NCBI RefSeq assembly: GCF_900172225.1
Contig: NZ_FWFO01000001.1
Coordinates: forward strand, 744,001 to 808,000
Source: Falsiruegeria litorea R37
GTDB lineage: Bacteria; Pseudomonadota; Alphaproteobacteria; Rhodobacterales; Rhodobacteraceae
Reading direction: 5' to 3'
DNA length: 64,000 bases
Shown: one piece after another, positions 9,057 to 43,292 of the stretch
Numbering within the stretch: the first letter of the stretch is position 1
How the letters are laid out: each line of letters starts with the position of its first letter
Made by a program: the position numbers and the translations under genes
The notes under the pieces: generated by a model
Database searches by the model: none
What the model saw: the letters and a program-made list of their open reading frames with translations, nothing else
Told to the model about the DNA's origin: nothing

Positions 9057-9271
9057 GCTCCCGCGCCCGCGCCAACCTGACTGCGTCAGCTCAGCGAGCG
9101 GCCTTGGGTCGGGCGCCTCGCCTACCGGCTCGGCGCGGTTCCGTTCAGACGGGAGGTTCGATCCTTTTGTCTTCGGTTGCAACCAAGCGCCCGCCGCCGC
9201 GCGCAGCGCGGCGGCCCGGCCCAACGGGAGGAGGTTTTTCGCAGAAAAATCAACGACCGGCGGGAGCACTC
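9057..9271 (-). repeat. Structured dispersed repeat, copy 1 (reverse orientation)
   Basis: Fills the gap between two convergent genes (cyclase and DUF3307). It is the reverse complement of the copies at 12930, 22835, 27319 and 43068. Visible hairpins are CTGAC-TGC-GTCAG (9077-9089) and TTTTTC-GCA-GAAAAA (9235-9249). Outer arms GGGCTCCCGC and GGCGGGAGC pair loosely. The core carries the shared blocks GCCTTGGGTCGGGCGCCTCGCC and GGCCCGGCCCAACGGGAGG in pairing orientation. No credible coding frame. Confidence 0.85.
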
Positions 9272-9292
9272 CGAGCCGTCAGTGACTTCGTG

Positions 9293-9688
9293 TCAGGCAG
9301 CGTAGGTGACCCAAGCCCAGGTCATCGCCACATAGGTCAGATTGTGCAGGCATTGATCCAGCCCGACTGCCCGCCAGAACGCGCCTTGCGTCGGGTTGAG
9401 CTCTTTCTTCTCGGAATAGCTGGCCTTACCAAAGTCGATGTTGAAATGAACCACCCATTCAAGCACGACCACAATCGCAATGAATGCCAAAGGCGCACCC
9501 ATGATCAGGAACACCAGGATCGAGCCCACCCCATGAACGCCCGCATGTTGCGCACGCCCCAGATGCCAATACTGGCAACGACCAGACAGCATTTTAGGTG
9601 TCTGCAAATAGAAATCCGCAAACATGTGCTTGACCATCAGCAAGCTAAAGAGCAACAGCACAGAGCTGACCAGTTCAGGCAAAGCCAT
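9293..9688 (-). CDS. DUF3307-type small membrane protein
   Basis: A 131-residue integral membrane protein. Hydrophobic segments are at ~5-25, ~55-78 and ~110-130. The N-terminal pattern KHMFADFYLQT and the following histidine-containing segments (WHLGRAQHAGVHGVGS, VLEWVVHFNIDF) fit the DUF3307 family, whose function is unknown. The histidines and aspartates near the membrane surface could bind metal (inference only). It is convergent with the cyclase gene, with the dispersed repeat filling the gap. Its upstream region is shared divergently with the cNMP-domain transporter. Confidence 0.75.
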   Translation of the reverse strand: MALPELVSSVLLLFSLLMVKHMFADFYLQTPKMLSGRCQYWHLGRAQHAGVHGVGSILVFLIMGAPLAFIAIVVVLEWVVHFNIDFGKASYSEKKELNPTQGAFWRAVGLDQCLHNLTYVAMTWAWVTYAA

Positions 9689-9822
9689 CCTCCCAAGAAT
9701 TGCCGAGAATCAGCTTAAGCGCATATCGGGGTGGCTGCAAATGAACTGGTTCACAGACGGACCAATCGAGCCATACGTAAATCCATTTGCCTGCAAACCG
9801 TGACGCAGAGTAGGTTTGGTCA

Positions 9823-9876
9823 ATGATTACGAGTATCGCCCGTCAGGTGTCCGGCCGCGCTGCAATTCAGGAATAG
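9823..9876 (+). other. Possible 17-codon leader ORF before the cNMP-binding transporter
   Basis: ATG at 9823 opens a 17-codon frame (MITSIARQVSGRAAIQE) ending at TAG 9874-9876. Its stop overlaps the AGGA (9869-9872) that would serve as ribosome site for the next gene and lies 4 nt before that gene's proposed ATA start. This placement would suit translational coupling. It could also be a frameshifted former N-terminus of the transporter, or chance. The rest of the 9689-9880 gap shows no other gene. Confidence 0.35.
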
Positions 9877-9880
9877 TCCC

Positions 9881-12800
9881 ATAGAACGTTCAATCTTTAG
9901 CTTTATCTGGAAGTATTCAAAGCGCGACCAGCTGATTTTGCTGGCGGTGACGACCACGCTTTTCCCGTTGCTTTACCTGACTCTGGAGTTGCCCAAGCGG
10001 ATCATCAACGACGCCATCGGTGCTGCCAGTTCCACCATCGACGTCTGGGGTTATACCTTTGATCAGGTCACGTTCCTGGGCATCCTGTGTTTCGCCTTTC
10101 TGCTGTCGGTGTTGGCCCACGGGCTGATGAAAATGCGCATCAACACGATGAAGGGTGTGCTCAGCGAACGGATGTTGCGCCGCTTCCGCTATCAGCTGAT
10201 CGCGCGGATCATGCGCTTTCCACAGCCTTATTTCGAACGCGTCAGCCAGGGCGAGATGGTGTCGATGGTCACCGCCGAAAGCGAACCTATGGGCGGTCTG
10301 ATGGGCGACGCCATCAGCCAGCCGGTGCTGCAGGCCGGGCAAATGATCACCATCCTGTCGTTCCTGTTTTTGCAAAGCTTCTGGTTTGGGCTGGCCGCTG
10401 TCGCCCTGATCCCGTTGCAGGCCTGGCTGATCCCCAAACTGCAAAAGCAGATCAACCTACTGAACAAGAAACGTATCCAAGAAGTGCGCGTTCTGGCGGC
10501 CCAGATCGGGGAAAGCGCGGCGGGTGCCTCGACGCTTCGTGCAAATGGCGGCTGGCGCTATCGTCGGGCCGCGATCACGGATCAGTTAGGGCGCCTGTTC
10601 GACATCCGTTTCGAGATCTACCAGAAGAAATTCTTCATGAAGTTCCTCAACAACTTCATCTCGCAGCTGACGCCGTTCTTCTTTTTCTCGATTGGTGGCT
10701 ATCTGGTTCTGCAGGGCGCCGTGTCCCTGGGGGCTTTGGTGGCGGCGCTGGCAGCCTACAAGGATCTCAGCAGCCCGTGGAAAGAACTGCTGACCTATTA
10801 CAACCAGACCCAGGACATGTCGATCCGATGGGAAGTGATCCTGGACCGCTTCGCCCCGCCCGGAATGGTCGACGAGAAGCTGTTTGAAGGCGAACCTGAA
10901 AGCCGTCCCAACCTGGATGGGGACATCGAGCTGGATCATGTCTCGGTTCGGGACGCGGATGGCAATCTGGTGCTGGACGATTTGACCGCTACGCTGCCCG
11001 GCGGTGGTATCATCGGCATCGCTGCTCCCAGCGAAGAGGACCGGCGCGCCCTGGCCGAATTGCTCACGCGTGAGATCATGCCCTCCAGTGGCACGGTTCG
11101 GATCGCGGACAACACCCTGCCCGAATTGCATCAGGCCGTGATCGCAGCGCGGATTGGTCACGCCACCTCGCGGCCGGTGATGTTTCAGGGCAGCATTGGC
11201 GACAACGTGATGATGCCGATGCGGCATCAGCCCCAGAGCGACAGCACCAACGGCATGGCCTATCGCGAGGCCAAGCGCGCGGGCAACAGCGACGACCCGT
11301 TCGATGCAGAATGGCTCGATCCGAAACTGGCGGGGCTCGAGGATGAGGCAGCTTTGCGGGCTTGGTGGTTGCGTTTGGTCGAGGGGATGGGCTCGGGCGC
11401 GGCGCTGTTCCGGCGTGGTGCTGAACAGAAGTTCGACGAAGCGGACCACCCGGAACTGGCAAGCCGCCTGATCGAGCTGCGCCCGGTGGTGCAGCAGGCA
11501 ATGCAGGACGCCGGGCTCGAGCCGCAGGCTTATTTGTTTGATCCCGATGCTTACAACCCGGCCTTGCCCGTGGCCGAGAACCTGCTTTTTGCGACGCCAA
11601 GGGTGGCGTTCTCGCAAGATATGATCGCTTCGCAGGCCGAGTTCCTGGCGCTTTTGCGGTCTTTGCATGTGGATGAGACATTGGTCAGCCTGACCCAGGA
11701 CGTGATCGACATGCTGCGCCAAATCTTTGGGTTGGACGGTACCGATCACCCGCTTTTCCGCAAGCTTGGGCTTGAGGTAAAGACCTATGAAACCGCTGTG
11801 GAACTGGTCGAAAAGACGCGCACCGATGGGGCGGCCGCTCTGGAAGACACCGAACTGGCAAACCTTCTGGCTGTGCCGTTCCGAATTTCGGCCGATCAGA
11901 TCGGGCCTGCGTTCTCGGACGAGCTCAAGGCGCGTATCCTGGAAATTCGACGGGGGCATTCGGCCGAGCTGTTGCGCTCGCTGGATGGGGTGTTCACACC
12001 GCTTTCTCCGGACAGTTACGCACCAGGGTTGACGGTTCTGGAAAATGCGCTTTTTGGCAAAGTCAGCGAGGTCGGCGGCGCCAAATCGGACGAACTGCGC
12101 AAACTGATCGCGGACACTTTGGCTGCCCATGGCGCACAGGCGCAGGTGATCGAGCTGATCTATGATGTGCCGGTGTCCTTGGGGGGCACCAACCTGCCGG
12201 CAGTATTTGCCGAGCCGCTGGCCTTTACCCGCGCGACGATCAAAAAGCCGGATGTTCTGATCCTGGACAAGGCACTGGATAGCTATGACATGGACACGCA
12301 AGTGGCGGTTTACCGGAACCTGCGGGCGTTGTTGCCGGATACGACCGTGATCTACCTGAACGATCAATTCCAGTCGCCGGGTGTTTTCGACGTCTTTCTT
12401 GAAATTCAACAGGGCCGGATCGTCAGCGAAGAGGCACAGACCGAGGCCGAAGAGGACAGCGTCGCCTCGGCCGATTTGGCGCGCAAACTGCGGGCGCTTG
12501 AGCAAACGCCATTGTTTTCTGGCCTCGACCGGCGTCAGCTGCGGCTCTTGGCCTTTGGGGCGCGCTGGTATGATGCCAAGGCGGGTGATGTGGTGTTTCT
12601 GAAGGACGATGAACCCACTGACGGCGCCTATATGATGATCGATGGCGAGGCGGGGCTCTATCTGCCTCAGGACGATGCCGAGGACCAACTCATTGCCAAG
12701 GTGGGGGCCGGGACTTTGGTTGGTGAATTGGGCCTGATCCGCAAGGTGCCCCGCGCGCTGTCCATGGTGGCGGAAACCGACATCACCTGTTTGCGCATCG

Positions 12801-12889
12801 GCGAAGAGGAATTCCTGGCGGTGGTCGAAAATGACGCCGCAACTGCGTTCAAGCTGTTGCAGGTGGTTGCGGGTTATGTTTCCAACTGA
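9881..12889 (+). CDS. ABC-type transporter with degenerate ATPase and C-terminal cNMP-binding domain
   Basis: About 1002 residues from a proposed ATA start at 9881. The reading frame carries IERSIFSFIWKYSKRDQ ahead of the first TTG (9938), and AGGA lies 8 nt before the ATA. An ABC exporter-type membrane domain (~1-300) is followed by a nucleotide-binding region interrupted by ~280 residues. Key ATPase motifs are altered: the Walker A position (~380) reads IAAPSEEDRR; the signature (~766) reads SLGGTNLP; Walker B (~789-803) is PDVLILDKALDSYD with Lys in place of the catalytic Glu; the H-loop position reads YLNDQF. A D/E-N-x-(L/M) helix start after the Q-loop is seen three times (near 440, 565 and 720). 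Residues ~867-990 form a cyclic-nucleotide-binding domain (GELGLI, then PRALSMVAETD). Probably a cAMP-sensing or regulatory ABC protein rather than an ordinary pump; the substrate is unknown. Confidence 0.75.
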   Translation: MERSIFSFIWKYSKRDQLILLAVTTTLFPLLYLTLELPKRIINDAIGAASSTIDVWGYTFDQVTFLGILCFAFLLSVLAHGLMKMRINTMKGVLSERMLRRFRYQLIARIMRFPQPYFERVSQGEMVSMVTAESEPMGGLMGDAISQPVLQAGQMITILSFLFLQSFWFGLAAVALIPLQAWLIPKLQKQINLLNKKRIQEVRVLAAQIGESAAGASTLRANGGWRYRRAAITDQLGRLFDIRFEIYQKKFFMKFLNNFISQLTPFFFFSIGGYLVLQGAVSLGALVAALAAYKDLSSPWKELLTYYNQTQDMSIRWEVILDRFAPPGMVDEKLFEGEPESRPNLDGDIELDHVSVRDADGNLVLDDLTATLPGGGIIGIAAPSEEDRRALAELLTREIMPSSGTVRIADNTLPELHQAVIAARIGHATSRPVMFQGSIGDNVMMPMRHQPQSDSTNGMAYREAKRAGNSDDPFDAEWLDPKLAGLEDEAALRAWWLRLVEGMGSGAALFRRGAEQKFDEADHPELASRLIELRPVVQQAMQDAGLEPQAYLFDPDAYNPALPVAENLLFATPRVAFSQDMIASQAEFLALLRSLHVDETLVSLTQDVIDMLRQIFGLDGTDHPLFRKLGLEVKTYETAVELVEKTRTDGAAALEDTELANLLAVPFRISADQIGPAFSDELKARILEIRRGHSAELLRSLDGVFTPLSPDSYAPGLTVLENALFGKVSEVGGAKSDELRKLIADTLAAHGAQAQVIELIYDVPVSLGGTNLPAVFAEPLAFTRATIKKPDVLILDKALDSYDMDTQVAVYRNLRALLPDTTVIYLNDQFQSPGVFDVFLEIQQGRIVSEEAQTEAEEDSVASADLARKLRALEQTPLFSGLDRRQLRLLAFGARWYDAKAGDVVFLKDDEPTDGAYMMIDGEAGLYLPQDDAEDQLIAKVGAGTLVGELGLIRKVPRALSMVAETDITCLRIGEEEFLAVVENDAATAFKLLQVVAGYVSN

Positions 12890-12929
12890 CGTCTAGGTGT
12901 TGATAGCCAGCACAGTTCTAGAATTCAAA

Positions 12930-13174
12930 GCACTCCCGCCCGTCGTCGATGTTTCTGACGAAACACCTCCTCCCGTTGGGCCGAGCCTCGCTGCGCTCGG
13001 CGGGTGGTGCCTGGTTACTGACCTTTCATGGCAGAATTCCCCGCTCTCGTGAGGGTGCTGTTGCGCACAACGCCTGCCGCAGGCGCTACCACGCCGGGCC
13101 GATAGGCGAGGCGCCGGGCCCAAGGCCGCCAGCGATTTCGGCGCAGCCGAAATCTGCGCGGGCGCGGGAGCCCG
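12930..13174 (+). repeat. Structured dispersed repeat, copy 2
   Basis: Lies between two convergent genes (cNMP transporter and ArsR). It has the common frame CTCCCGCCCGTCG, then CTCCTCCCGTTGGGCCG, then GGCGAGGCGCC and GGGCCCAAGGCCG, ending GCGCGGGCGCGGGAGCC. Stem A is TGTTTC-TGAC-GAAACA (12950-12965). Stem B is GATTTCGGC-GCA-GCCGAAATC (13134-13154). Both stems differ in sequence from the other copies but keep full pairing. Confidence 0.85.
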
Positions 13175-13198
13175 CCCATTCTGCGAGTTCTGCCGTTG

Positions 13199-13606
13199 TC
13201 AGGTGTCTCGGGTTTGATCCTGGGCGCAAAACAAGCTGTGAAGCAGGCCGATAACCTGCTCTGTCTTGTGGTCCAGCAGCGAATAATAGATCGTCTTCCC
13301 GTCGCGTCTGGTTGTTACCAGCCCCTCATCCCGCAGCCGCGCCAGCATCTGGCTGACAGCAGCCTGCCGCATCTGCAACAACTCTTCCAGTTCGCCCACT
13401 GAACGTTCGCCTGTGCCCAGGTGGCACAGGATCATCAGCCGCCCCTCGTGCGCCAGGGTCTTGAGGTAAGCCGCCGCCTGGCTGGCGCTGGCGGCCATGC
13501 TGTCGGGGGTGTCGGGCGAGAGAGGGGCAGAGGGCTGAAGCGTCACGGTCACTGGTTCCTGCAAAATCGTGGACGTATAATGCCCCAACAGCCCGCAAGA
13601 TGTCAC
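13199..13606 (-). CDS. ArsR/SmtB-family transcriptional regulator
   Basis: A winged-helix regulator of 135 residues from a GTG at 13606 that overlaps the preceding stop (GTGA, 4 bp). A later ATG at 13498 would give 99 residues and still keep the whole domain. The core LKTLAHEGRLMILCHL...VGELEELLQMRQAAVSQMLARLRDEGLVTTRRDGKTIYYSL is a typical ArsR HTH and wing. No metal-binding ELCVCD-type motif is present, although a Cys lies near each end. As the last gene of the dehydrogenase/dehydratase operon it may control that operon (inference). Confidence 0.85.
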   Translation of the reverse strand: MTSCGLLGHYTSTILQEPVTVTLQPSAPLSPDTPDSMAASASQAAAYLKTLAHEGRLMILCHLGTGERSVGELEELLQMRQAAVSQMLARLRDEGLVTTRRDGKTIYYSLLDHKTEQVIGLLHSLFCAQDQTRDT

Positions 13607-14835: not shown

Positions 14836-14837
14836 GG

Positions 14838-15206: not shown

Positions 15207-15261
15207 GGGCGGTATTGGCTCCAAAAGGAGGAGGGGCAGGGACAAACCCCGCCCGCATCCG

Positions 15262-21560: not shown

Positions 21561-22802
21561 GTGAAACGGATGATTGCACTAGGGGCCGTTCTGCTGGGCT
21601 TGGCCACCGCAGGGCAGGCCAGCGAGGAAAGCAAGACGTGGGAGGCATCCGACAAGGCAAAACTGTTCGTGCAGGACACCATTGTTCTGGGCATGTTGGC
21701 CAGCCCCTATGGCACCGGCTGGACCGAATACTCGCAAGTTCACGACTACTTTCAACGCGCCCGGGACAATGGGATCACCGGGCATGAAATGACCCTCGCC
21801 GCTGCGGACATGTCGTTTGAGACGCTGCTGGAACAGCATTATCATTTCCGTGCTGCGATGGCTGAGCAGCCTCAGAATTATCTGGTGGTCAATCAGACCC
21901 GCGATATTGAAGCCGCCCATGCCCAGGGCAAGACAGCGGTGATCTGGAACAGCCAGACGGCCACCATCCTGAACGGCGATTTGAAAAAGATGGCGCTGCT
22001 CAAGGATATGGGGATCAAGAGCATGATCCTGGCCTACAATGACATTTTTCGCACCGGTTCAGGGCAGCTTGCAGCTTATAACGGAAACGACATCGGTTTG
22101 ACCCCGTGGGGCAGGTCGGTGATCGACGAGATGGTCCGATTTGGCATCCTGCTGGATCTAAGTCACACCGGATCAAAGACCGCCAACGATGCCATGGATT
22201 ACATGGATATGACCTATCCTGGTGTGCCCTATGTCTATACCCACTCGGTTCCGGCGGGCCTTTACAAGGGCGAGCCGGGGGCCACACCGCGCGGCTGCTA
22301 TCGCGCCATTCCGGATGATGAGGCGCTGCGGGCGGCCAAGTCGGGGGGCTATATCTCGCCGACCTTTACCGAATGGATGATGGACGGCATCTGGCCCGAT
22401 GACATCTCGCCGGCGCAGGCGGCGGACATGATCGATTACTACGTGCAGCTGGTCGGCGTTGATCACGTGGGCATTGCCACGGATGACATGTTCTCGACCA
22501 AGTTGGTGGTGGATTTTGCGACCGCCAACGCGGCGATGTATGACGATGGCGGATATATGATCGAAGCCTTCAACAAGGGCGCGACAGGCAACGGAGAACT
22601 GGCCAAGATATTGGCGGCAATCACTGATGACCTGTGGGCGCGCGGCTATTCAAACGAGGATCTGGCCAAGATCTATGGCGGCAACAAGATGCGCGTCTAT
22701 GCGCAGGTGTGGGAGGGCAAACCACCCGAGCAGTTCCTGCAGGAATATCCCGAACGCCTGCGCCTGCGGCAAGAGTTCCGGGATCAGTTCCATTCACGGT
22801 AA
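21561..22802 (+). CDS. Exported membrane-dipeptidase-family (M19) metallohydrolase
   Basis: A 413-residue protein with a signal peptide (~1-21, [14 protein letters not shown]). GTG start at 21561 behind GGGGAGAG; an ATG three codons later is the alternative. The M19 features are [22 protein letters not shown], the metal-site region [18 protein letters not shown] with a later [11 protein letters not shown], and [11 protein letters not shown]. The family cleaves dipeptides or lactam-like cyclic amides with two zinc ions. The usual N-terminal metal motif HxD is not obvious: the equivalent segment reads [14 protein letters not shown]. It may therefore be a divergent member. The mature protein is probably periplasmic. 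Confidence 0.82.
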
Positions 22803-22834: not shown

Positions 22835-23051
22835 GGGCGCTCCCGCCCGTCGTTCGTGCATCAAAGATGCCCTCCTCCCGTTGGGCCGGGCCTCGCTTCG
22901 CTCGGCGGTTGGCACTGCGCCGCACCAGATGGAAGCAGCATGAACCCTTCGCCTCACGCGGAACCGCGCCGAGCCGGTAGGCGAGGCGCCCGGCCCAAGG
23001 CCGCTCGCTGAGCTGACGCAGTCAGGTTGGCGCGGGCGCGGGAGTTCCCCG
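22835..23051 (+). repeat. Structured dispersed repeat, copy 3
   Basis: Fills the gap between the convergent dipeptidase and phosphodiesterase genes. Stem A is GCATC-AAA-GATGC (22859-22871); stem B is CTGAC-GCA-GTCAG (23014-23026). The outer arms CTCCCGCCCG and GCGCGGGCGCGGGAG face each other. The inner arms TTGGGCCGGGCCTCGC and GGCGAGGCGCCCGGCCCAA are near-complementary. Very close to copy 1 in its right half. Confidence 0.87.
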
Positions 23052-23064
23052 TTACCGAGAATCG

Positions 23065-24255
23065 TTAATTCAGCCGGATATGCGCCATGATCTGGCCGTG
23101 GTCCGAGGCGAGCTTGTTATAGGGCGCTTCGGGGTGTGAGCCATCCGTCAGGTGGTCGTTGAAGACGCTGTAATACTCCATCTCGCCCATGGCCTTGCCC
23201 CAGGCGCTGTCGAAATGGCGCGACATATAGATCTGGTCGATGCTCTCATACACCCCGCCAAAGGCCGCCGTATAAACCATGTCGCGCAGGGATTTGCGCA
23301 CGAACATCTTCTCGGCCGAACGTAGCCGAACCCGGTCCACGGCCTCGGTGATCTGTTCATTCTCGTCGCGCGAATAACGATCATTGGGGGCCTGGGCGTC
23401 GTGGCGCAGCATCCAGGAGTAGTTCTTGAACGGATGCTCGCCCGAGATGATCTCGGAACTCACCGCATGTTCGCCATCGTTGAAGTCGCCCAGAACCATC
23501 ACGGGGTGACCCTTGTCCAGTTCGGCCACGATCTCGCGCCGCAGGACCCAGGCCTCGGCCATGCGCCGCAAGGCCGAACGCAGCGCGCCCATGGCGCGGC
23601 CTACCGGGTCATAGGCGGTCAGTACGGCCTCGGGCGCGAACTCGGCGCCATCGGGGCGAATGAACTCTCCTAGCTTCGATTTCAGATGGCAGTTGAAGAC
23701 GGTGATGACCTTGCCCCCAACCGGGACACGGACTTTCAGGATCGGTCGCGAGATGCGGGTTAACGTGTAGTGACCAGCACCTTCATCGCCGCCCAAAGCG
23801 GACATGGGGATGCGCAGGGGCTCCGGCAGCTCCTGGATGATTTCCGGTTCCTCGGGAAAGCCAAAACGCGACAGCACCGCCAGCCCGGGCCGTCGTTCGC
23901 CCGGACCGCCATCTGATGCATTGGCTGCAAAGGCTAGCGCCGCGTCCTTGTACCCGCCAAAGGCCAGCTTTCGAAAGATTGCCTTCTTGTGATAGCGCTT
24001 GGATCTATCTGGCAGATTGGCGTCATTTGCCTCCCTGCCGCGCCGGTCCGTTTCCGCTATCACATCGCGCAAGGCTTCTTCTTCAAAGATTTCCTGAAAA
24101 CCGACGACATCCGCGTCCATGGTCAGCAACTGGTCCGCCATCCAATCCTGTTTCCAGGCGTATTCCTCGGGCGCGTATTTTTGGAAGGTATAATATTCCT
24201 TGTCCGCCCCGATCAGGTTTTTGACGTTAAACGATGCAATGGTGAACCGGGTCAT
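23065..24255 (-). CDS. Endonuclease/exonuclease/phosphatase-family protein
   Basis: A 396-residue cytoplasmic EEP-fold phosphoesterase. The typical motifs appear in order: FNVKNL (residues 9-14), GFQEIFEEEAL (Mg-binding Glu), FNCHLKSK, LGDFNDGEHA, and the C-terminal SDHGQIMAHI (catalytic Asp-His). The motif set predicts metal-dependent phosphodiester cleavage of nucleic acid or another phosphodiester; the substrate is unknown. Its ATG overlaps the upstream dehydratase stop by 4 bp (ATGA). Last gene of the 26739-23065 operon. Confidence 0.88.
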   Translation of the reverse strand: MTRFTIASFNVKNLIGADKEYYTFQKYAPEEYAWKQDWMADQLLTMDADVVGFQEIFEEEALRDVIAETDRRGREANDANLPDRSKRYHKKAIFRKLAFGGYKDAALAFAANASDGGPGERRPGLAVLSRFGFPEEPEIIQELPEPLRIPMSALGGDEGAGHYTLTRISRPILKVRVPVGGKVITVFNCHLKSKLGEFIRPDGAEFAPEAVLTAYDPVGRAMGALRSALRRMAEAWVLRREIVAELDKGHPVMVLGDFNDGEHAVSSEIISGEHPFKNYSWMLRHDAQAPNDRYSRDENEQITEAVDRVRLRSAEKMFVRKSLRDMVYTAAFGGVYESIDQIYMSRHFDSAWGKAMGEMEYYSVFNDHLTDGSHPEAPYNKLASDHGQIMAHIRLN

Positions 24256-26053: not shown

Positions 26054-26739
26054 CAAACCCCTGCCAGTTGCGGAATGCTCGTGAGGTCGGACAGTACATG
26101 TGCAGGCGTCCATGGCAAGCGGTCCATCGGCTCGGCAGCGCGATTGACCCAAGCGGTGGTGAACCCATAGCCGCTGGCCCCGACCGCGTCCCAACCGTTC
26201 GAGCTGACAAACAGCACCTCATCGCGCGCGCAACCGAACCGGTGCCCGACAAGATCATAGACACGTGCGTCAGGTTTGAAGATGCCGACGCTTTCGACCG
26301 AGAGCACATCATCCAGCACATCGCCAACGCCCGCCGACTGTACCGCGCCATCCAGCATCGCGGGGGAGCCGTTCGACAGGATCGCGGTTTTCAACCCGGC
26401 ATCCTTTAGCGCGCGCAGCATTTGCGGCACTTCCGGATAGGCTTGCAACTCCCAATAGAGATCAAGCAACCGTTGGCGTAAGGCTGGGTCACCGTCCAGA
26501 CCCGTTGCCTCGAGCGCCCAATCCAAGCCGTCCTGGGTCACATCCCAGAAATCGGTATGCGCGTCCGTTATGGCGCGCAGCCAGGTATATTGCAGTTGCT
26601 TCAGGCGCCAATAGTTGGCGAGATCCATCCAGGTGTCCTTGAGCGCGGCATGCGCAGGCTCGGATGCGGCTTGTCGAGCAGCGGCGGCCACGTCGAACAA
26701 GGTGCCGTAAGCGTCGAATACGCAGGTTGTGATTGCCAT
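26053..26739 (-). CDS. Haloacid dehalogenase type II (HAD superfamily)
   Basis: A 228-residue HAD hydrolase started at the ATG at 26739 behind GGGAGAGGA. HAD motif I is TCVFDAYGTLFD (nucleophile Asp9, with AYGTLFD typical of (S)-2-haloacid dehalogenases). Motif II is LSNGSP. The lysine is in VGIFKPDARVY, and the acid motif is VSSNGWDAVGASGYG, also dehalogenase-like. It would replace a 2-halogen by hydroxide. First gene of the operon dehalogenase-hydrolase-dehydratase-EEP protein. Confidence 0.88.
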   Translation of the reverse strand: MAITTCVFDAYGTLFDVAAAARQAASEPAHAALKDTWMDLANYWRLKQLQYTWLRAITDAHTDFWDVTQDGLDWALEATGLDGDPALRQRLLDLYWELQAYPEVPQMLRALKDAGLKTAILSNGSPAMLDGAVQSAGVGDVLDDVLSVESVGIFKPDARVYDLVGHRFGCARDEVLFVSSNGWDAVGASGYGFTTAWVNRAAEPMDRLPWTPAHVLSDLTSIPQLAGV

Positions 26740-26871
26740 GATGTCCTCTCCCTCAACTCCGAGGCGCAGGGTTGCACAGGCGGGGCAGGGGGAAAAGCCC
26801 CGAACCTTTACATTGGCGTGAGGGTCCGTCAGGGTGCGCCATCTTTCAACTCCCACTCGATCGGAGACCCA

Positions 26872-27300
26872 ATGACCAAGGTCAAATCAGGCGACACAGT
26901 GCGCATCCACTACACCGGAACCCTGCTGGATGGCAGCACTTTTGACAGTTCGGAAGGGCGGGATCCGTTGGAGTTTGTGGTGGGTTCGGGTCAGATTATC
27001 CCGGGCTTGGATAAGGCGCTTCCAGATATGGAAGTGGGGGAGAAGAAGAAGGTGACGATCGATTGCAAAGAAGCCTATGGCCCGATCAACCCCGCCGCCC
27101 GTCAATCCATTCCTCGCGAAGGCATCCCGGATGACATTCCGCTGGAGATCGGCACTCAGTTGCAGATGCAGACCCCGGACGGTCAGGCTCTGCCTGTGAC
27201 CGTTGTGGAAGTGGACGAGGCAACAGTGACCCTTGACGCCAATCACCCGCTCGCGGGCCAGGATCTGGTGTTCGATTTCGAGATCGTTTCGATCAATTGA
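26872..27300 (+). CDS. FKBP-type peptidyl-prolyl isomerase (SlyD-like)
   Basis: A 142-residue protein. ATG at 26872 behind CGGAG; the open frame extends to 26557, but that part overlaps the divergent dehalogenase. The FKBP fold shows YTGTLLDGSTFDSS, then PLEFVVGSGQIIPGLDKAL, then an inserted chaperone flap (~70-125: KEAYGPINPAARQSIPREGIPDDI), then LDANHPLAGQDLVFDFEIVSI. That flap layout is SlyD-like, but without the histidine-rich tail. It speeds proline isomerisation and likely acts as a folding factor in the cytoplasm. Confidence 0.9.
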   Translation: MTKVKSGDTVRIHYTGTLLDGSTFDSSEGRDPLEFVVGSGQIIPGLDKALPDMEVGEKKKVTIDCKEAYGPINPAARQSIPREGIPDDIPLEIGTQLQMQTPDGQALPVTVVEVDEATVTLDANHPLAGQDLVFDFEIVSIN

Positions 27301-27318: not shown

Positions 27319-27548
27319 GGGGGCTCCCGCCCGTCGGAAACGCCCCTGACGGGGCGCCACCTCCCGTTGGGCCGGGCCTCGCTTCGCTCGGCGGTTGGTG
27401 CATCGTTGGGATCTAAGCGCTATTGAGGCCGACTTTGTGCGCGGCGTTTGCTGCTGGCGGGACCGCGCCGCGCGCAGCGCGGCGCTCGGCCCAAAGCCGT
27501 TAGCGGTGCCGACGCAGTCGGGATCGCTCGGGTGCGGGAGCGCTCCCG
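27319..27548 (+). repeat. Structured dispersed repeat, copy 4
   Basis: Lies between the convergent FKBP gene and the small gene at 28089-27634. Stem A is CGCCCC-TGAC-GGGGCG (27341-27356); stem B is CCGAC-GCA-GTCGG (27509-27521), one compensated pair away from copies 1, 3 and 5. A third hairpin, GCGCCGCGC-GCA-GCGCGGCGC, sits in the right arm (about 27465-27485). Nothing else is seen in 27301-27633. Confidence 0.85.
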
Positions 27549-27633: not shown

Positions 27634-28089
27634 TCATTCGTCCAAAGTCAGGCCGCCTCTGCGCACGGGAATACGGCTGCGGGGCATGGAAGAGACAATC
27701 GGGACGGCAGGTGTGTCGGACTGCTCGGCATCTCCGCCAAACATACTGCCCGCGTCGGGCAGGTTGAGGCTGCCCAACCATGTAGAACCGTTTTCGGCTG
27801 GTGATGACGGTTCGGCGTTGGGGATATCCAATTGCGCGACAACTGAAGTTGCTTCTGTCGCCTCGCTCACATCTGTCGCCGATCCAATTTCTGTATCAGC
27901 GACCTGATGCACATCAACATGCGCCTTCGGTTCGGTAAACAGCCCTTGTACCTGGGGTGAAGACATCAGTACCACCACCATCAAACAGCCGCATCCAGCC
28001 ACCAGCGTGACCTTCAATCCGCGCAAGGGGTTGGCGTTTGGCTTGGGGTCGCGCATTCGGGCGCTAAGGGTGACATCGGGCTGAGGCAT
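27634..28089 (-). CDS. Small single-pass membrane protein, unknown function
   Basis: About 151 residues from the ATG at 28089; an upstream in-frame ATG at 28140 would run into the fabI terminator hairpin. A basic N-terminus is followed by one hydrophobic helix (~22-42, LKVTLVAGCGCLMVVVLMSS). The rest is an acidic, Ser/Thr/Ala-rich, low-complexity tail, probably periplasmic and disordered, with a basic end (PRSRIPVRRGGLTLDE). Not recognised. No partner is apparent from its neighbours. Confidence 0.6.
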   Translation of the reverse strand: MPQPDVTLSARMRDPKPNANPLRGLKVTLVAGCGCLMVVVLMSSPQVQGLFTEPKAHVDVHQVADTEIGSATDVSEATEATSVVAQLDIPNAEPSSPAENGSTWLGSLNLPDAGSMFGGDAEQSDTPAVPIVSSMPRSRIPVRRGGLTLDE

Positions 28090-28124
28090 GCAGGCACCAT
28101 GACCCGAAACCTTGGCAATCAAAG

Positions 28125-28158
28125 GGCGGGGCCATGGCAATCTCTTGCAGGCCCCGCC
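28125..28158 (-). terminator. Putative terminator hairpin after fabI
   Basis: Inverted arms GGCGGGGCC (28125-28133) and GGCCCCGCC (28150-28158) with a 16-nt loop lie just beyond the fabI stop. No clear U-run follows on the fabI strand, so it may be only a transcript-end hairpin. Confidence 0.4.
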
Positions 28159-28167: not shown

Positions 28168-28959
28168 TTACATGCTTTCAGGCTGCGGCATACCCAGGAC
28201 GTGGAAGCCGCCGTCGACGCGAATGATCTCGCCTGTGGTGCAGGCGCCCGCATCCGAGGTCAGGTAAACCGCTGTGCCGCCAACCGCCTCAAGCGTTGCG
28301 TTCGAGCGCATGGGCGCGTTGGTGTCAGCAAACTTGAACGTCTTGCGGGCCCCCCCGATGGCCGCGCCGGCCAGGGTTTTCATTGGTCCGGGCGAAATGG
28401 CGTTCACGCGGATGCCTTCGGGGCCCAGATCGTTTGCCAGATAACGGGTCGCTGATTCCAGCGCTGCCTTGGCCACGCCCATCACGTTGTAATTCGGGAC
28501 AACCCGGTTCGACCCGGCATAAGTCAGCGTCAGCAGCGTGCCGCCGTTGTCTTTCATCAGCGGATGCGCTCGGCGGGCCACTTCGATAAAGGAATAGGCC
28601 GAGATATCCATCGAGTTTTTGAAGTTCGCCCGGCTGGTATCTAAAAACCGCCCCGTCAGTTCGGTCTTGTCCGAATAGGCGATGGCGTGCACCAGAAAGT
28701 CGATGGTGGGCCAACGGTCACCCAATTGGGCAAAGGCCGTGTCCAGTGACGCATCATCGGTGACATCCACATCCACCATGAAATCAGAACCGACGCTCTG
28801 CGCCAGTGGCTCCAAGCGTTTGCCAAAGGCTTCACCCTGATAGGTGAAGGCCAGCTCGGCCCCCGCCTCGGCCATGGCTTTGGCGATGCCCCAAGCGATC
28901 GAGCGATCATTGGCAACGCCCATGATCAGCCCGCGTTTGCCCTGCAATGCTCCGGTCAT
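28168..28959 (-). CDS. fabI: Enoyl-ACP reductase (NADH)
   Basis: A 263-residue FabI that reduces trans-2-enoyl-ACP in each elongation round. The cofactor loop is GLIMGVANDRSIAWGIAKA, typical of FabI. The catalytic Tyr-x6-Lys is in PNYNVMGVAKAALE, with the preceding LTYAGSNRVVPN. The ending EIIRVDGGFHVLGM is also typical. It starts 4 nt after the fabB stop, so the two are co-transcribed. FabI is the known target of triclosan-type inhibitors. Confidence 0.95.
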   Translation of the reverse strand: MTGALQGKRGLIMGVANDRSIAWGIAKAMAEAGAELAFTYQGEAFGKRLEPLAQSVGSDFMVDVDVTDDASLDTAFAQLGDRWPTIDFLVHAIAYSDKTELTGRFLDTSRANFKNSMDISAYSFIEVARRAHPLMKDNGGTLLTLTYAGSNRVVPNYNVMGVAKAALESATRYLANDLGPEGIRVNAISPGPMKTLAGAAIGGARKTFKFADTNAPMRSNATLEAVGGTAVYLTSDAGACTTGEIIRVDGGFHVLGMPQPESM

Positions 28960-34078: not shown

Positions 34079-34101
34079 GCAAGAGGAAGAGGGGCGTGGC
34101 G

Positions 34102-36416: not shown

Positions 36417-36656
36417 TCGCGCTGCGATTGTATTGGGGCGACTCACTCAATTTTCTGAACTGACCAAAGTTGCCAGTTCAGCGACAATCTGTTGAATTTC
36501 TGGTGAGTATCTCCAGCTCGGCCACAATATGTGGTGGATTTTGCTTCACAATTATCTCTTATTTTCCTAACCTTAGGTCAATTGGGTTATGGGTACTCGC
36601 CGATGCATGTCAGCGGTGCCAATTTTTTGGGGGAACTATGGTGAGGGATATCAGCG

Positions 36657-37223: not shown

Positions 37224-37234
37224 GGAGAGCTGTC

Positions 37235-37528
37235 ATGAAACTGATCAAAGGCATTGCGCTTCTCGCAGCCTTGGGTGGCTTGGCCGCCTGCGAGGCAACC
37301 GACAAAACCGTGGACCGGGGCTTTGATTCCGGTGACCTGTCGAACCTGAAGGCGGGCATTTGGGTTGACCCAACGGGCTGTGACCACTGGATCATCGACG
37401 ACGGGCTCGAAGGGTACCTGTCCCAGCGTCTGGACCGCAACGGCAAGCCGGTCTGCTCGGGTGCGGCCCCTCCGGGTGTGGCCACCGGGCCGTTCAAGAA
37501 AGGCTCGGGTGTCGTAGACGCGATCTGA
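37235..37528 (+). CDS. Small lipoprotein sharing a domain with the OmpA-family gene
   Basis: 97 residues. ATG at 37235 behind GAGGAGAG. The N-terminus MKLIKGIALLAALGGLAAC is a lipoprotein signal with Cys19 as the likely lipid site. The mature part repeats the IWVDPTGCDHWIIDDGLEGY...RNGKPVC unit seen in the preceding protein, with paired cysteines. Probably outer-membrane anchored and translated with the OmpA-family protein. Unknown function; the shared unit suggests the two bind the same partner. Confidence 0.85.
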   Translation: MKLIKGIALLAALGGLAACEATDKTVDRGFDSGDLSNLKAGIWVDPTGCDHWIIDDGLEGYLSQRLDRNGKPVCSGAAPPGVATGPFKKGSGVVDAI

Positions 37529-37555
37529 TCGCCTGAACATTCGCATCAAACACGG

Positions 37556-37592
37556 AACGACCAGCAATGCCTTTGCTGGTCGTTTTCTTTTT
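37556..37592 (+). terminator. Rho-independent terminator after the lipoprotein gene
   Basis: Stem arms ACGACCAGCA and TGCTGGTCGT around a short loop, followed by TTTTCTTTTT. Strong and well placed. Confidence 0.88.
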
Positions 37593-37736
37593 CATGCTGA
37601 AAAGGGGGCGGTGGCAGAATTTTGCCTTTGCCCTCACCAATTTTGTTTCAGTTGGATGAAAAGTGAACATGGCGGCTTGCGCACGCGCGGTGATCGTGGC
37701 TACGCTTGAACCAGACTGCCAAAACAGGAGAGCAGA

Positions 37737-38753: not shown

Positions 38754-38774
38754 GGCCAAGGCAACGGGGCAGGC

Positions 38775-39272
38775 ATGCTGGATATCGCAATCGAAGACGA
38801 CCGCTGGCAAGATGCCGGTCTTGAGGCGTTGGCCGAACGCGCCACTGCTGTGACGCTGGCTCATCAGGGGTTGGACGCCGAGGCGTGCGAGATTTCACTG
38901 CTGGCCTGTGATGATGACCGAATTGCGGTGCTGAACGCCGAGTTTCGCGACAAACCCACACCCACCAACGTGCTCAGCTGGCCCGCGCAAGAGCTGGCAC
39001 CCGAAAGGCCCGGTGGTGAACCAGATCGACCTGAGCCCGATTTCATGGGCGAACTGGCCGTGGGCGACATCGCGATCTCATATGACACTTGCGCCCGCGA
39101 AGCGCAGGCTGCGGGCAAGCCGATGGACGATCACGTGACACATTTGATCGTACACGGGGTTTTACATCTGCTGGGGTATGACCATATCCGTGACGCCGAT
39201 GCCACTGTGATGGAGGCATTAGAGGTCGAGATACTTGGCAAAATGGGCATCAATAACCCATATATAGAGTGA
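38775..39272 (+). CDS. ybeY: Endoribonuclease YbeY
   Basis: A 165-residue metal-dependent endoribonuclease for 16S rRNA 3' end maturation and ribosome quality control. Zinc ligands His127, His131 and His137 are in [20 protein letters not shown] and [11 protein letters not shown] match family blocks. Lies between phoH and the CorC-type gene in one operon. Confidence 0.95.
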
Positions 39273-39308
39273 AGGGGCCTTTTGGGCCTTGGTTTTGGAA
39301 TAGGAATA

Positions 39309-40211
39309 ATGGGCGACACAGACGGCAGTTCTAACGCAGCGCAAAGCGCGCAGTTGCAGAACACAGCAGATTTCTCCGCCGACACTGCATCGGCGGAACG
39401 GGGCTTTTTCTCACGCATCATGGATGCGATCTCCTCCCCAACGGAAGAGCCTGAACCAGTGGAACCGAACCATCCGGCGACCACTACGGCCCAACCTCAT
39501 GGCATGATCAACCTGCGTCGGATGCGGGTCGAGGACGTGGCGATTCCCACGGCCGAGATTGTGTCGGTGCCCAACACGATTTCCCGCGACGAACTGGTGC
39601 AGGTCTTTCGCGACAGCGGTCTGACCCGAATACCGGTTTACGAGGGGACTCTGGATACGCCGCTTGGGTTCGCCCACCTCAAGGATTTTGCCCTGATCCA
39701 CGGTTTCAATGGCAACTCGACCGAGTTCGACCTGCAAAGCATGGTCCGCCCGTTGCTGTTTGTGCCCCCCTCCATGCCCATTGGTGTGCTGCTGGCCAAA
39801 ATGCAGACCGAGCGGCGCCACATGGCGCTGGTGATCGATGAATATGGCGGCGTCGATGGCTTGCTGACGATCGAGGATCTGATCGAACAGGTCGTGGGTG
39901 AGATCGAGGATGAGCATGACACCGGCGAGGATCAGACCTGGCTCAAGGAAAAGCCTGGCTGCTATGTGGCCCAAGCCCGCACGCCGCTTGATGAGTTCGA
40001 GTCCGAGATCGGCCGCTCGCTGACTAAACACGAGGATGTGGACGAGGAAGAGATCGACACGCTGGGCGGTTTGGTCTTCATGCTGTCGGGCCGCGTACCC
40101 GCGCGTGGCGAAGTCGTCTGCCACCCCGATGGGCCCGAGTTCGAGGTCATCGACGCTGACCCCCGCCGTATCAAGCGGTTGCGGGTCATGCTGCCAGATC
40201 TGATCGAATGA
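39309..40211 (+). CDS. CBS-domain CorC/HlyC-family protein
   Basis: 300 residues from the ATG at 39309; the frame is open from a TTG at 39282. It has two CBS domains (~70-200; VEDVAIPTAEIVSV, and MALVIDEYGGVDGLLTIEDLIEQVVGEIEDEHD) and a C-terminal CorC_HlyC/transporter-associated domain (~215-298, PLDEFESEIG, GLVFMLSGRVPARGEV). It lacks the membrane DUF21 domain, so it is a soluble CorC type, linked to Mg2+/Co2+ efflux. Its stop overlaps the lnt start (ATGA). Confidence 0.9.
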   Translation: MGDTDGSSNAAQSAQLQNTADFSADTASAERGFFSRIMDAISSPTEEPEPVEPNHPATTTAQPHGMINLRRMRVEDVAIPTAEIVSVPNTISRDELVQVFRDSGLTRIPVYEGTLDTPLGFAHLKDFALIHGFNGNSTEFDLQSMVRPLLFVPPSMPIGVLLAKMQTERRHMALVIDEYGGVDGLLTIEDLIEQVVGEIEDEHDTGEDQTWLKEKPGCYVAQARTPLDEFESEIGRSLTKHEDVDEEEIDTLGGLVFMLSGRVPARGEVVCHPDGPEFEVIDADPRRIKRLRVMLPDLIE

Positions 40212-41716
40212 ACCGTCTGCTGATGGGGCCTTTGTGGGCTAGGCTGTCGCTGACGGTTTTGCTCGGCGCCATTGCCGCCTTTGGATTGGCGCCTTTTGGA
40301 GCGTGGTGGGTCACGCTGGTTGTGTTGACTCTGGTGCCATGGCTGATGACCTCAGTAACAGCGCCGCGCCAGGCCTTTGGTTTGGGCTGGGCTTTGGGGC
40401 TGGGGTATTTTGCACATGGGTTGCTCTGGATCGTCGAGCCGTTTTTTGTCGACCCCGAGCGGCACGCATGGATGGCGCCATTTGCGCTGAGCTTTTTGTC
40501 AGGCGGGTTGGCGCTCTTTTGGGGCGCGGCCTTTTGGGCAGCGCACCGATGGGGCAAGGCTCCAGGATCGCGCATGTGGCTGTTGGTCTGCACGTTGTCC
40601 TTGGCCGAGTTTGCCCGCGCATACGTGTTCACGGGGTTTCCCTGGGCCGGATTGGCACAGATTTGGGTGGGCTCGGATGCCGCAGCGCTATTGGCTTGGG
40701 TCGGTCCGCACGGGTTGGCATTGTTGACCGTGATGATCAGTTTTGCCACCGGGTTGCTGCTGATCGGCCCACGCTCGGGCCGCGCGCTTTGGAACGCAGC
40801 CCCGGCGGTGGCTTTTGGTTTGGCTGTCCTTGGGGGGGGCGCAAGCGCGCCGCCGGTGACGGGAACCGGCCACACCGTGCGCCTTGTACAACCCAATGCA
40901 CCGCAACACCAAAAGTGGGACCCGGCCCACATGCCAACTTTCTACGAGCGGCAGATTGATTACACGGCTGCCGTGCCGCGTCCGGATTTGATCGTTTGGC
41001 CGGAAACGGCGGTGCCGGTGTGGCTGGAAACCGGTGGCCCAGCTTTGGACAGGATTGCTGCAGCTGCTGATGGCGCGGCCCTTGCACTGGGTATCCGCCG
41101 GTCCGAAGGCAGCCGCATCTTCAACTCGATGGTCTATCTGGATGAGCAGGGCCAGGTAGCAGGGGTATATGACAAGCACCACCTGGTGCCGTTTGGAGAG
41201 TATGTTCCCTTTGGGGATTTGATGGCCCGTTTCGGGATTTATGGGTTCGCTGCCAATGCGGGGCAGGGGTTCAGTTCGGGCCCGGGGGCTGAGCTGGTGT
41301 CGATGGGCACGCTTGGTCGTGCGCTGCCGCTGATTTGCTACGAGGCGGTGTTTCCGCAGGACATCAATGCTGCCAGCGCCCGGCCCGAGTTTCTGCTGCA
41401 GGTGACAAATGACGCCTGGTTCGGGGCGCGTTCTGGTCCCTATCAGCATCTGGCCCAGGCCCAGATGCGCGCCATCGAGCAAGGCGTGCCTCTGATGCGC
41501 GCCGCCAATACCGGCGTCTCGGCCATGATCGACCCGCTTGGTCGCGTGACCGCCAGCCTGGGGTTGGGGCAGGCGGGTTACGTTGACGCGGAATTGCCCG
41601 CGCCTTTGCCGCCGACGCTCTATGCGCGTACCGGTGATCTGTTGGCGCTTGCCGCCTTGATCCTGCTGAGCCTTGCTGTGGCCGCAAGTCAACGTCCCGG
41701 AATGCGTGGCAAATAG
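40208..41716 (+). CDS. lnt: Apolipoprotein N-acyltransferase
   Basis: A 502-residue inner membrane enzyme that adds the third acyl chain to lipoproteins. About 6-7 N-terminal helices are followed by a periplasmic nitrilase domain and a final helix (LLALAALILLSLAVA). The catalytic triad is Glu266 (WPETAVP), Lys323 (YDKHHLVPFGEY) and Cys377 (LICYEAVFP), matching E. coli E267, K335 and C387. The small lipoprotein at 37235 is a likely substrate. Confidence 0.95.
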   Translation: MNRLLMGPLWARLSLTVLLGAIAAFGLAPFGAWWVTLVVLTLVPWLMTSVTAPRQAFGLGWALGLGYFAHGLLWIVEPFFVDPERHAWMAPFALSFLSGGLALFWGAAFWAAHRWGKAPGSRMWLLVCTLSLAEFARAYVFTGFPWAGLAQIWVGSDAAALLAWVGPHGLALLTVMISFATGLLLIGPRSGRALWNAAPAVAFGLAVLGGGASAPPVTGTGHTVRLVQPNAPQHQKWDPAHMPTFYERQIDYTAAVPRPDLIVWPETAVPVWLETGGPALDRIAAAADGAALALGIRRSEGSRIFNSMVYLDEQGQVAGVYDKHHLVPFGEYVPFGDLMARFGIYGFAANAGQGFSSGPGAELVSMGTLGRALPLICYEAVFPQDINAASARPEFLLQVTNDAWFGARSGPYQHLAQAQMRAIEQGVPLMRAANTGVSAMIDPLGRVTASLGLGQAGYVDAELPAPLPPTLYARTGDLLALAALILLSLAVAASQRPGMRGK

Positions 41717-41755
41717 GCGTTGACCGCCCCAATCCTCGCGCGTATCCCTCGGTGG

Positions 41756-41803
41756 AATTGTCACAACGGCTTCCTGGCGTGGCAGTTGTAACCCTAATGG
41801 AGC
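41756..41803 (+). promoter_or_regulatory. SAM/SAH riboswitch in the metK leader
   Basis: The leader contains the motif CACAACGGCTTCCTGGCGTG followed by AATGGAGCA, matching the SAM/SAH aptamer known from Rhodobacterales metK leaders. Stem P1 pairs 41756-41764 with 41779-41787. The loop segment GGCTTCC can pair with the GGAGC that contains the ribosome site, so ligand binding would hide it and switch off metK translation. The ligand is inferred from family knowledge. Confidence 0.9.
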
Positions 41804-41810
41804 ACTATTG

Positions 41811-42992
41811 ATGTCCCGAAAAAATTACACTTTCACTTCGGAATCCGTCTCCGAAGGCCATCCGGACAAAGTCTGCGACCGGATTTCAGACGCGGTCCTG
41901 GATGCCTTTCTGAGCGAAGAGCCCGAGGCGCGCGTTGCGGCGGAAACCTTTGCCACCACCAACCGCGTGGTGATCGGCGGTGAAGTCGGCCTGTCCGACC
42001 AGGACAAGCTGCGCGATTACATGGGCCGGATTGACGAGATCGCCCGCGCCTGCATCAAGGACATCGGCTACGAGCAGGACAAGTTTCACCACGAGACGGT
42101 TGAAGTAACGAACCTGCTGCACGAGCAGTCGGCACATATCGCCCAAGGTGTTGATGCGGCGGATAACAAGGACGAAGGGGCAGGCGACCAGGGCATCATG
42201 TTCGGCTACGCCACCACCGAGACCGAAGCGCTGATGCCCGCCCCGATCCAGTACAGCCACGCGATCCTGCGCCGTCTGGCCGAAGTGCGCAAGAACGGCA
42301 CCGAACCTGCGCTTGGCCCCGATGCCAAATCGCAGCTCTCGGTCATCTACGAAGATGGTAAGCCGGTCGGCGTCAGCTCGGTCGTGTTGTCGACCCAGCA
42401 CCTGGACGAGTCGCTGAGCAGCGACGACATCCGGGCCATCGTCGAGCCTTACATTCGCGAGACCCTGCCCGAAGGCTGGCTGTCGGCAGCGACCGAATGG
42501 CACGTGAACCCAACCGGTAAGTTCGTGATCGGCGGCCCCGACGGTGACGCAGGCCTGACCGGACGCAAGATCATTGTTGATACCTATGGCGGTGCCGCGC
42601 CCCACGGTGGCGGTGCGTTCTCGGGTAAGGACCCGACCAAGGTGGACCGTTCGGCGGCTTATGCAGCGCGCTACCTGGCCAAGAACGTTGTGGCGGCTGG
42701 CATGGCCGAACGCTGCACCATCCAGCTGAGCTATGCCATCGGTGTCAGCAAGCCGCTGTCGATCTATGCCGACACCCACGGCACCGGCGAAGTGGAACCC
42801 GCCGCGATCGAGCAGGCGATCGACCAGGTCATGGATCTGACCCCGCGCGGTATCCGCTCGCATCTGGGTCTGAACAAGCCGATTTACCAGCGCACCGCAG
42901 CCTATGGCCACTTTGGCCGCACGCCGGATGCAGATGGCGGCTTCAGTTGGGAACGCACCGATCTGGTAGACGCACTCAAGGGCGCTGTGTGA
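41811..42992 (+). CDS. metK: S-adenosylmethionine synthetase
   Basis: 393 residues from the ATG at 41811 (GGAG 8-9 nt upstream, inside the riboswitch); a TTG lies one codon earlier. Makes SAM from methionine and ATP. Signature segments: [21 protein letters not shown] (phosphate binding), [13 protein letters not shown] (adenine/metal), and [19 protein letters not shown] (P-loop-like). Complete length. SAM made here is used by miaB and trmB nearby. Confidence 0.96.
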
Positions 42993-43014
42993 TCTGAGAC
43001 GATCAACACGTTCG

Positions 43015-43046
43015 AAAAGGCGGTCCACCTGGGCCGCCTTTTTTTG
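43015..43046 (+). terminator. Rho-independent terminator of metK
   Basis: AAGGCGG...CCGCCTT hairpin (arms AAGGCGGTCC and GGGCCGCCTT) followed by seven T residues, 25 nt after the metK stop. Confidence 0.9.
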
Positions 43047-43067
43047 TGGAGATGGGGGCATTCATGA

Positions 43068-43292
43068 AGCGGGAGTGCTCCCGCCCGTCGTTCGCGCATC
43101 AAAGATGCTCTCCTCCCGTTGGGCCGGGCCGCCGCGCTGCGCGCGGCGGCGGGCGCTTGCCGCAACAGGATCGTTCAGGTCGCATCGTTGGATCTGGAGG
43201 CAACCGCGGCGAGCCGAAGGCTCGGCGCGCGGCCCAAGGCCGTTAGCGGGGCTGACGCAGTCAGGTCTGCTCGGGCGCGGGAGCACTTCCGC
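43068..43292 (+). repeat. Structured dispersed repeat, copy 5
   Basis: The only copy between genes on the same strand (metK and the P-loop kinase). Stem A is GCATC-AAA-GATGC (43096-43108); stem B is CTGAC-GCA-GTCAG (43252-43264). The left arm holds GCCGCCGCGC-TGC-GCGCGGCGGC and the right arm CGAGCC-GAA-GGCTCG. The ends GCGGGAGTGCTCCCGC and GGGAGCACTTCCGC pair with each other. Confidence 0.86.

Follow-up and report, generated by a model that had tools for sequence, protein, structure and literature searches.

What is a structured repeat doing five times over in a single 64,000-nucleotide stretch of the Falsiruegeria litorea R37 genome (contig NZ_FWFO01000001.1, positions 744,001 to 808,000, hereafter the window), and is the repeat itself the unit that matters? 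An initial sequence-only reading described five copies of a 215-245 nt intergenic element whose stems vary while remaining paired, and took the whole length for the unit. In this paper we report that the copies belong to a family of sequences with strict polarity at gene ends, and that this family is real, widespread and modular. The module is about 55-110 nt long, and the long palindrome first noticed is largely two such modules facing each other, not a single RNA of 215-245 nt.

The basic module, the L unit, reads in order CTCCCGCCCGTCG (a C-rich box, box 1), a variable hairpin A, CTCCCGTTGGGCC (C-rich box 2) and a GC-rich hairpin without a U-tract. The R unit, read on the other strand, consists of CTCCCGCGCCCG, a hairpin whose base covaries, and then CGGCCTTGGGCC. 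A full element is an L unit opposite a diverged and inverted R unit, and the large palindrome arises because the two inverted modules share TTGGGCCGGGC. Three covariance models were searched, one of the whole element built from 21 sequences (R1), one of the L unit (R2) and one of the R unit (R3). By pattern, 67 of the 126 L units that R2 finds in the genome are solo and 59 are paired with an R side, so that the unit is the module and the 215-245 nt whole is not. When the R2 and R3 lists are compared, 5 of 60 R units have no listed L partner, and the R unit thus nearly always accompanies an L unit; facing L-L pairs are seen in some relatives (loci L099, L139 and L158). After a long second hairpin, 21 of the 67 solo L units carry a conserved tail that has two small hairpins, TGCCGTCCGCAGGACGC...CGCGCAG, and the end of this tail module lies 0-10 nt from the stop of the facing gene in 10 of the 15 units that have a facing gene.

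The boxes are conserved as sequence: of 126 L units, 85 agree with the box consensus at each of its 25 letters and 29 more depart from it at one. The L unit is often preceded by a G-rich run, GGGG being found no more than 12 nt upstream of CTCCCG in 70 of 126 units as against 24 of 630 random 12-mers from the same loci. Behind many full elements a CCCC mirrors this upstream run, and the GGGG could pair with the box. In the apical parts of full elements, for example at window 22838-23045, there are inner hairpins GCCTCG...CTCGGC and GCCGAG...GGCGAGGC, which in many copies contain corresponding mismatches of two bases, TC/TC on one strand and GA/GA on its complement, and in others are perfect pairs.

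The extent of the family goes well beyond five copies. With one copy as query, BLASTN gave 49 matches in the 4.69 Mb genome of the window. R1 gave 103 matches, with some places matched on both strands (150 of 3505 candidates scored), R2 gave 126 L units at E<=0.01 and 121 at E<=0.001 (150 of 2985 scored), and R3 gave 60 R units (150 of 6719 scored), all three counts being lower bounds. In three congeners, where R1 was scored on 58 candidates apiece, the matches number 57, 58 and 58. A search of the genome and of other Rhodobacterales with covariance models had been proposed along with the repeat; carried into the Rhodobacteraceae, it produced R1 matches in 29 of 394 genomes (6 candidates scored per genome) and R2 matches in 22 of 198 (28 candidates scored). 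R1 had no match in 16 genomes of other families, and R2, run on 190 genomes drawn from the class, matched in the window's own genome only. A scan of named genomes for the exact pattern returned at least 119 stretches whose titles bear a Rhodobacteraceae or Rhodobacterales genus and, among the matches listed, two further stretches from one metagenome-assembled genome labelled Alphaproteobacteria. The family, one of marine rhodobacteria, occurs in many genera of Rhodobacteraceae and is restricted to the Rhodobacteraceae as far as sampled. Two Tritonibacter mobilis plasmid records match 61 nt at 84-86%. The search of phages gave no match; two IMG/VR contigs that have an 18-nt word and lack box 1 were considered as a phage link and taken as chance.

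The position of the modules relative to genes, which were called with a simple codon-usage caller trained on the window, offers the clue to what they are. None of the 126 L units overlaps a called gene, and 107 lie downstream of a gene read in the same sense. The stop codon is no more than 60 nt away for 81 of these, and the median distance for all 107 is 25 nt. Their gene settings are convergent in 83 cases, ++ in 24, -- in 17 and -+ in 2. On the other side of full elements the R unit stands opposite a gene end in 52 of 59, and within 60 nt of it in 39. Within the window there are 27 gaps of at least 60 nt, and the five with elements are 4 of 6 convergent and 1 of 7 ++ gaps, as against 0 of 7 -- and 0 of 7 -+ gaps. 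That solo units elsewhere would show the same sense polarity was set as a prediction before counting. The first 80 loci of the pattern scan hold 85 pattern places, 55 of them solo, and 51 of these 55 have an upstream gene in sense, at a distance of at most 60 nt for 40 of the 51 (median 20 nt). Of the 38 solo units that lie beyond the genus, 35 keep the polarity. Among loci of other genera found by R2, polarity is kept in 18 of 25, with a caller trained on another genome.

A sense position at the 3' end would fit RNAs derived from 3' untranslated regions (3'-UTRs), and one explanation is that the modules yield regulatory RNAs in which the CUCC boxes, left unpaired, would serve as anti-Shine-Dalgarno sequences against other mRNAs. 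The 'cuckoo' or CcsR small RNAs (sRNAs) of Rhodobacter carry CCUCCUCCC in hairpin loops, and CCTCCTCCCG is present in most L units of the genus. However, box 2 often reads CGCTCCCG or GCCTCCCG beyond the genus and CCTCCTCCC is not kept there, so only CTCCCG is kept; moreover, the R unit lacks the CCTCCTCC stretch and the repeat has no Rfam match. We regard a regulatory RNA of this kind as very improbable.

The covariation in the stems is above chance, as had been claimed from five copies. In an alignment of 21 copies from this genome, double changes occur in 14 of 49 predicted pairs, and pairing is kept in 96.0% of cells compared with 90.5% in shuffles (none of 500 as high) and 28-45% in all six slid versions. 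Of the five measures applied to this 21-copy alignment, that of further pair types fails to rise above the shuffles (185 of 500). Most of the signal comes from stem A, with 4 of 4 pairs, and from the 3' hairpin, with 7 of 15. The long closing stems of the whole element hardly vary, with 6 of 8 and 6 of 9 pairs invariant, and covariation therefore says nothing on them. In the R-unit alignment 6 of 13 pairs show double changes. For hairpin A, 64 L units mostly from other genera show double changes in 5 of 5 pairs, with 106 cells versus 30.0 in shuffles, in an alignment that was fitted to the model and is hence biased towards it. Folding of 169 distinct hairpin-A segments, each taken between exact boxes, placed 70% of them ahead of 95% of the shuffles of their own letters (mean z -2.7). 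Both hairpin A and the hairpin of the R unit are thus real. Consensus folds also propose a pairing of box 1 with box 2, GCCCGUCG/CGUUGGGC, a stem that shows no change on both sides in the 64-unit alignment and is predicted at a probability of at least 0.5 in just 10 of 74 units folded in context.

A fold of the whole element as one RNA was also considered and is rejected, since the fold of one full-length copy is no better than that of its shuffles, whichever strand is taken (z -0.86 and -0.36), and L units often stand alone. The near-palindromic whole, the convergent sites and the invariant outer stem would suit an element that acts as DNA and is bound, where two genes converge, by a nucleoid or recombination protein, the hairpins being extruded as cruciforms. 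Solo units, however, are not palindromic as a whole and yet keep the sense polarity, and the covariation of the fold sits in small hairpins inside the module, so a role as DNA appears to us quite improbable.

The sites themselves are shared among congeners. For the five window sites, all 15 counterparts in the three congeners hold an R1 match in the same orientation, and at one of them, the counterpart of the fifth copy in congener G001, the recognisable L boxes are lost. When 40 high-scoring elements of two congeners were compared with 20 elements of the window's genome, 31 shared both flanks with one of the 20, 2 shared one flank and 7 shared none. At the two unshared sites examined, the gap in the window's genome holds unrelated sequence and not a clean empty site. 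At one of the two (locus L412, contig C2, about 227422-227563) this sequence is two AT-rich perfect hairpins, CCAATTTCTTTCAAAGAAATTGG and AGAAAATTTGAAATTTTCT, and an element lies between the same genes in the three congeners.

At shared sites the boxes are held and the hairpins are not. Hairpin A could be compared in 45 of 46 orthologous pairs, which are not independent of one another; it is identical in 5 and differs by at least 6 edits in 26, and 23 of those 26 reach a folding energy of -1.5 kcal/mol or lower in both versions. Hairpin A is thus often replaced wholesale at the same site, which looks like exchange between copies in addition to stepwise compensation. In the 26 of 28 full orthologous pairs that were usable, with a box search that tolerated up to 2 mismatches per box, identity is 98.3% in L boxes and 94.4% in R boxes, 67.6% in hairpin A and 59.6% in the middle, as compared with 64-70% in the near flanks and 82.5% in nearby coding DNA. 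Identity is high in the boxes and low in the hairpins, which indicates that boxes are held and hairpins exchanged. The proposal that the fold and not the sequence is kept therefore holds for the structured, covarying stems and fails for the boxes, and the view of stem variation as compensation is right for the stepwise changes, while much of the variation is wholesale replacement.

Such swapping of short hairpin cassettes is also what might be seen among selfish palindromic repeats, of the repetitive extragenic palindrome (REP), bacterial interspersed mosaic element (BIME) or miniature inverted-repeat transposable element (MITE) type, spread by some enzyme and surviving best just behind stop codons, where they do least harm. 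The boxes would then be the recognition sequence of the mobilising enzyme, and gene conversion would keep the copies alike. The patchy copy number, strongly variable within one family of bacteria, is in keeping with this, as is the terminal inverted repeat CTCCCG...CGGGAG, which is present in 21 of 21 copies and is a feature of MITEs; REP families, according to PMC3733652, are likewise intergenic and found in facing pairs. The target-site duplication of a MITE, on the other hand, is not seen in 59 full elements, where no offset or length of 2-9 bp stands out, and the congeners hold elements at the same sites; the two gaps of the window's genome described above, which hold other sequence, are not clean empty sites. 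A REP driven by a REP-associated tyrosine transposase (RAYT) was rejected, as PF01797 (the IS200-like Y1/RAYT transposase) has no match in the window's genome; a control run on 14 known genomes found PF01797 in 5 of them. That solo units keep so strict a sense polarity would, in addition, require a separate explanation by insertion bias. We consider selfish spread the main rival and a serious possibility, if on balance an unlikely one.

Our preferred reading, held tentatively and at slightly less than even confidence, is that these sequences may be gene-end modules for transcription termination or for protection of the 3' end, in any such form. Each module lies in sense right behind a stop codon, and a facing pair, whether L with R, L with the tail module or L with an inverted L, fills a convergent gap with one module for each gene. 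Once translation stops, the C-rich boxes would be exposed on untranslated RNA and RNA polymerase would come to a halt, perhaps because Rho is loaded, and the stable hairpins may then shield the trimmed 3' end from exonucleases. The arrangement of box, hairpin and box resembles rutA-boxB-rutB of lambda tR1, where boxB lies between rutA and rutB (PMC8940904), and Rho termination is described in PMC7815308 as using C-rich and G-poor rut sites with 3' ends trimmed by exonucleases. A C/G ratio above 1 is found in all 81 L units counted, with a median of 1.5, and in 58 of 59 R units, as compared with half of 38 other gene ends, where the ratio is 1.03; YC density is 0.273 in L units versus 0.145 at other gene ends. 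A C-rich, G-poor composition behind stop codons suggests a Rho-type or other factor-dependent end. U-tracts are lacking here: in the 100 nt behind 59 solo units that follow a gene in sense, 51 have no T run longer than 3 and 58 have none longer than 4. A Rho-type mechanism specifically, argued by analogy with these systems, is conceivable and in our judgement doubtful. That the modules might form a dedicated, standardised gene-end system, in which one sequence-conserved terminator module has been copied to more than 100 gene ends, with facing pairs for converging genes, a swappable hairpin cassette and a specific reader (Rho or an RNA-binding protein of the Rhodobacteraceae), we think unlikely.

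Several observations weigh against a role of the modules in ending transcription. The composition is partly built in, as the C/G counts are not independent because the boxes fix them, and 78 nt taken from 20 nt before the unit give a ratio of 1.13, above 1 in 63 of 81. The 25-27 nt of conserved box sequence exceed what a rut site needs. Not every module is at a gene end, 19 of 126 L units not lying downstream of a gene in sense, and the site comparison took high-scoring elements and not a random draw. Most genomes have no detected copy and the highest count is 126, which leaves no general role for the modules. Where the L unit lies 60-250 nt past the stop, an intrinsic terminator comes first in 12 of 19, and the element is therefore not needed for termination there; insertion just past an intrinsic terminator where one exists would also suit a selfish repeat. 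Copy 5 in the window is such a case: the sequence read directly shows a GC hairpin followed by a T run at 43019-43046 on the + strand, between an S-adenosylmethionine synthetase gene and the element, which speaks against copy 5 as that gene's only terminator.

Whether elements stand in place of intrinsic terminators is judged from the 81 L-unit ends near a stop codon, where such terminators occur 7 times after the element and 0 times in the short gap before it; the zero says little, because a short gap leaves scant room for a terminator. The apparent depletion also weighs against the termination reading in that it varies with the controls, from 13 of 43 (p 0.004) to 17 of 77 (p 0.026) and, with all of them, 25 of 179 (p 0.31), and support for replacement of intrinsic terminators by the elements is accordingly weak and control-dependent. 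With a clear depletion our confidence in gene-end modules would be higher.

The repeat resembles several known systems and matches none. Against Rfam release 15 it has no match, neither in the window at the gathering threshold nor in six copy-bearing loci at E values up to 10, and the matches elsewhere in those searches are a SAM-SAH riboswitch and two sub-threshold lncRNA (long non-coding RNA) matches only; no description of this repeat was recognised among open-licence papers, and the available portion of PMC4809877, on R. pomeroyi sRNAs, contains no passage on such repeats. The claim that no described family fits is in agreement with these searches. Closest by dispersal are the CGTC-tagged REPs of alphaproteobacteria, which according to PMC3733652 are intergenic, of high copy number, built of facing hairpin units and have no dedicated transposase known; here, too, a CGTC occurs, as CCCGTCG in box 1 directly before hairpin A. 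PMC3733652 gives the tagged REP as an 8-9 bp stem starting with a complementary AT, a 4-5 nt loop and a CCA-like tail, 20-40 bp in total, whereas 55 aligned solo units have neither the AT stem start nor the CCA tail and the unit here is 55-110 nt. It also differs in having two boxes and two hairpins, in single units that point in sense away from the stop, and in its restriction to Rhodobacteraceae as far as sampled. Like Rho-dependent terminators such as lambda tR1 (PMC8940904), the module has a C-rich, G-poor stretch just past the end of translation that is split by a hairpin; unlike tR1 it has a long conserved sequence, at least 126 repeats and a stable hairpin behind, and dependence on Rho would hold here by analogy. 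With intrinsic terminators it has GC-rich hairpins behind stop codons in common, without the U-tract. In Neisseria and the Pasteurellaceae, uptake-sequence pairs serve as terminators, as facing copies between converging genes of 9-12 bp words present thousands of times; facing copies of one conserved sequence are common to both, but the family here is a structured module of 55 nt or more. By dispersal the family thus comes closest to REP-like repeats and by anatomy to Rho-type terminators, and it is a member of neither.

The five copies lie where they had been placed, and R1 gives the cores as follows. Copy 1, at 9057-9268 on the - strand (191 bits), has a HAMP/cyclase gene (7325-9037, +) on one side and a DUF3307 gene (9293-9688, -) on the other, both with their stop codons towards it. 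Its L unit (9214-9268, -, by R2; 753214-753268 of contig C1) is 24 nt past the stop of the DUF3307 gene and in sense with it, and its R unit (9057-9114, +, by R3; 753057-753114 of contig C1) is 19 nt past the stop of the cyclase gene and in sense with that gene. Copy 2, at 12931-13171 on the + strand (119.7 bits), is flanked by an ABC/cNMP-binding gene (9938-12889, +) and an ArsR/MarR-like HTH gene (13199-13606, -), with the R2 L unit at 12931-12986 (+) and the R3 R unit, which carries a long stem B GATTTCGGC/GCCGAAATC, at 13113-13171 (-). Copy 3, at 22838-23045 (+, 200.2 bits), separates a peptidase M19 gene (21561-22802, +) from an Exo_endo_phos gene (23065-24255, -), its L unit by R2 at 22838-22891 (+) and its R unit by R3 at 22988-23045 (-). 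Copy 4, at 27322-27541 (+, 144 bits), follows an FKBP gene (26557-27300, +) and is faced by a weakly called ORF (open reading frame; 27634-28140, -) with no Pfam match and then by an SDR gene (28168-28959, -); R2 places its L unit at 27322-27377 (+) and R3 its R unit at 27484-27541 (-). Copies 2 and 4 are absent from the 21 sequences on which R1 was trained and still score as given.

Copy 5, at 43076-43284 (+, 178.1 bits), has its L unit at 43076-43129 (+, R2) and its R unit at 43227-43284 (-, R3). Its setting is tandem, with the S-adenosylmethionine synthetase gene (41808-42992, +) upstream and a 207-aa ORF (43298-43921, +) and a PF02390 methyltransferase gene (43933-44643, +) downstream. Immediately 5' of the synthetase gene, a SAM-SAH riboswitch aptamer lies at window 41755-41804. 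In all five copies the sequences and pairing of stems A and B read as the sequence-only reading quoted them, and so do the shared blocks, except that copy 1 has CTCCCGCCGGTCG as its first box and copy 4 has CCCAAAGCCG as its third.

Bacterial terminators are usually regarded as unrelated sequences that arise gene by gene. If the modules end transcription, one recurrent terminator part would be present in more than 100 places of one genome, kept at the same sites across species while its hairpin is exchanged between copies. If they are selfish, they would be repeats of unusually strict sense orientation behind stop codons, with no known mobiliser. Such a part could mislead the annotation of 3' ends and sRNAs in marine rhodobacteria.

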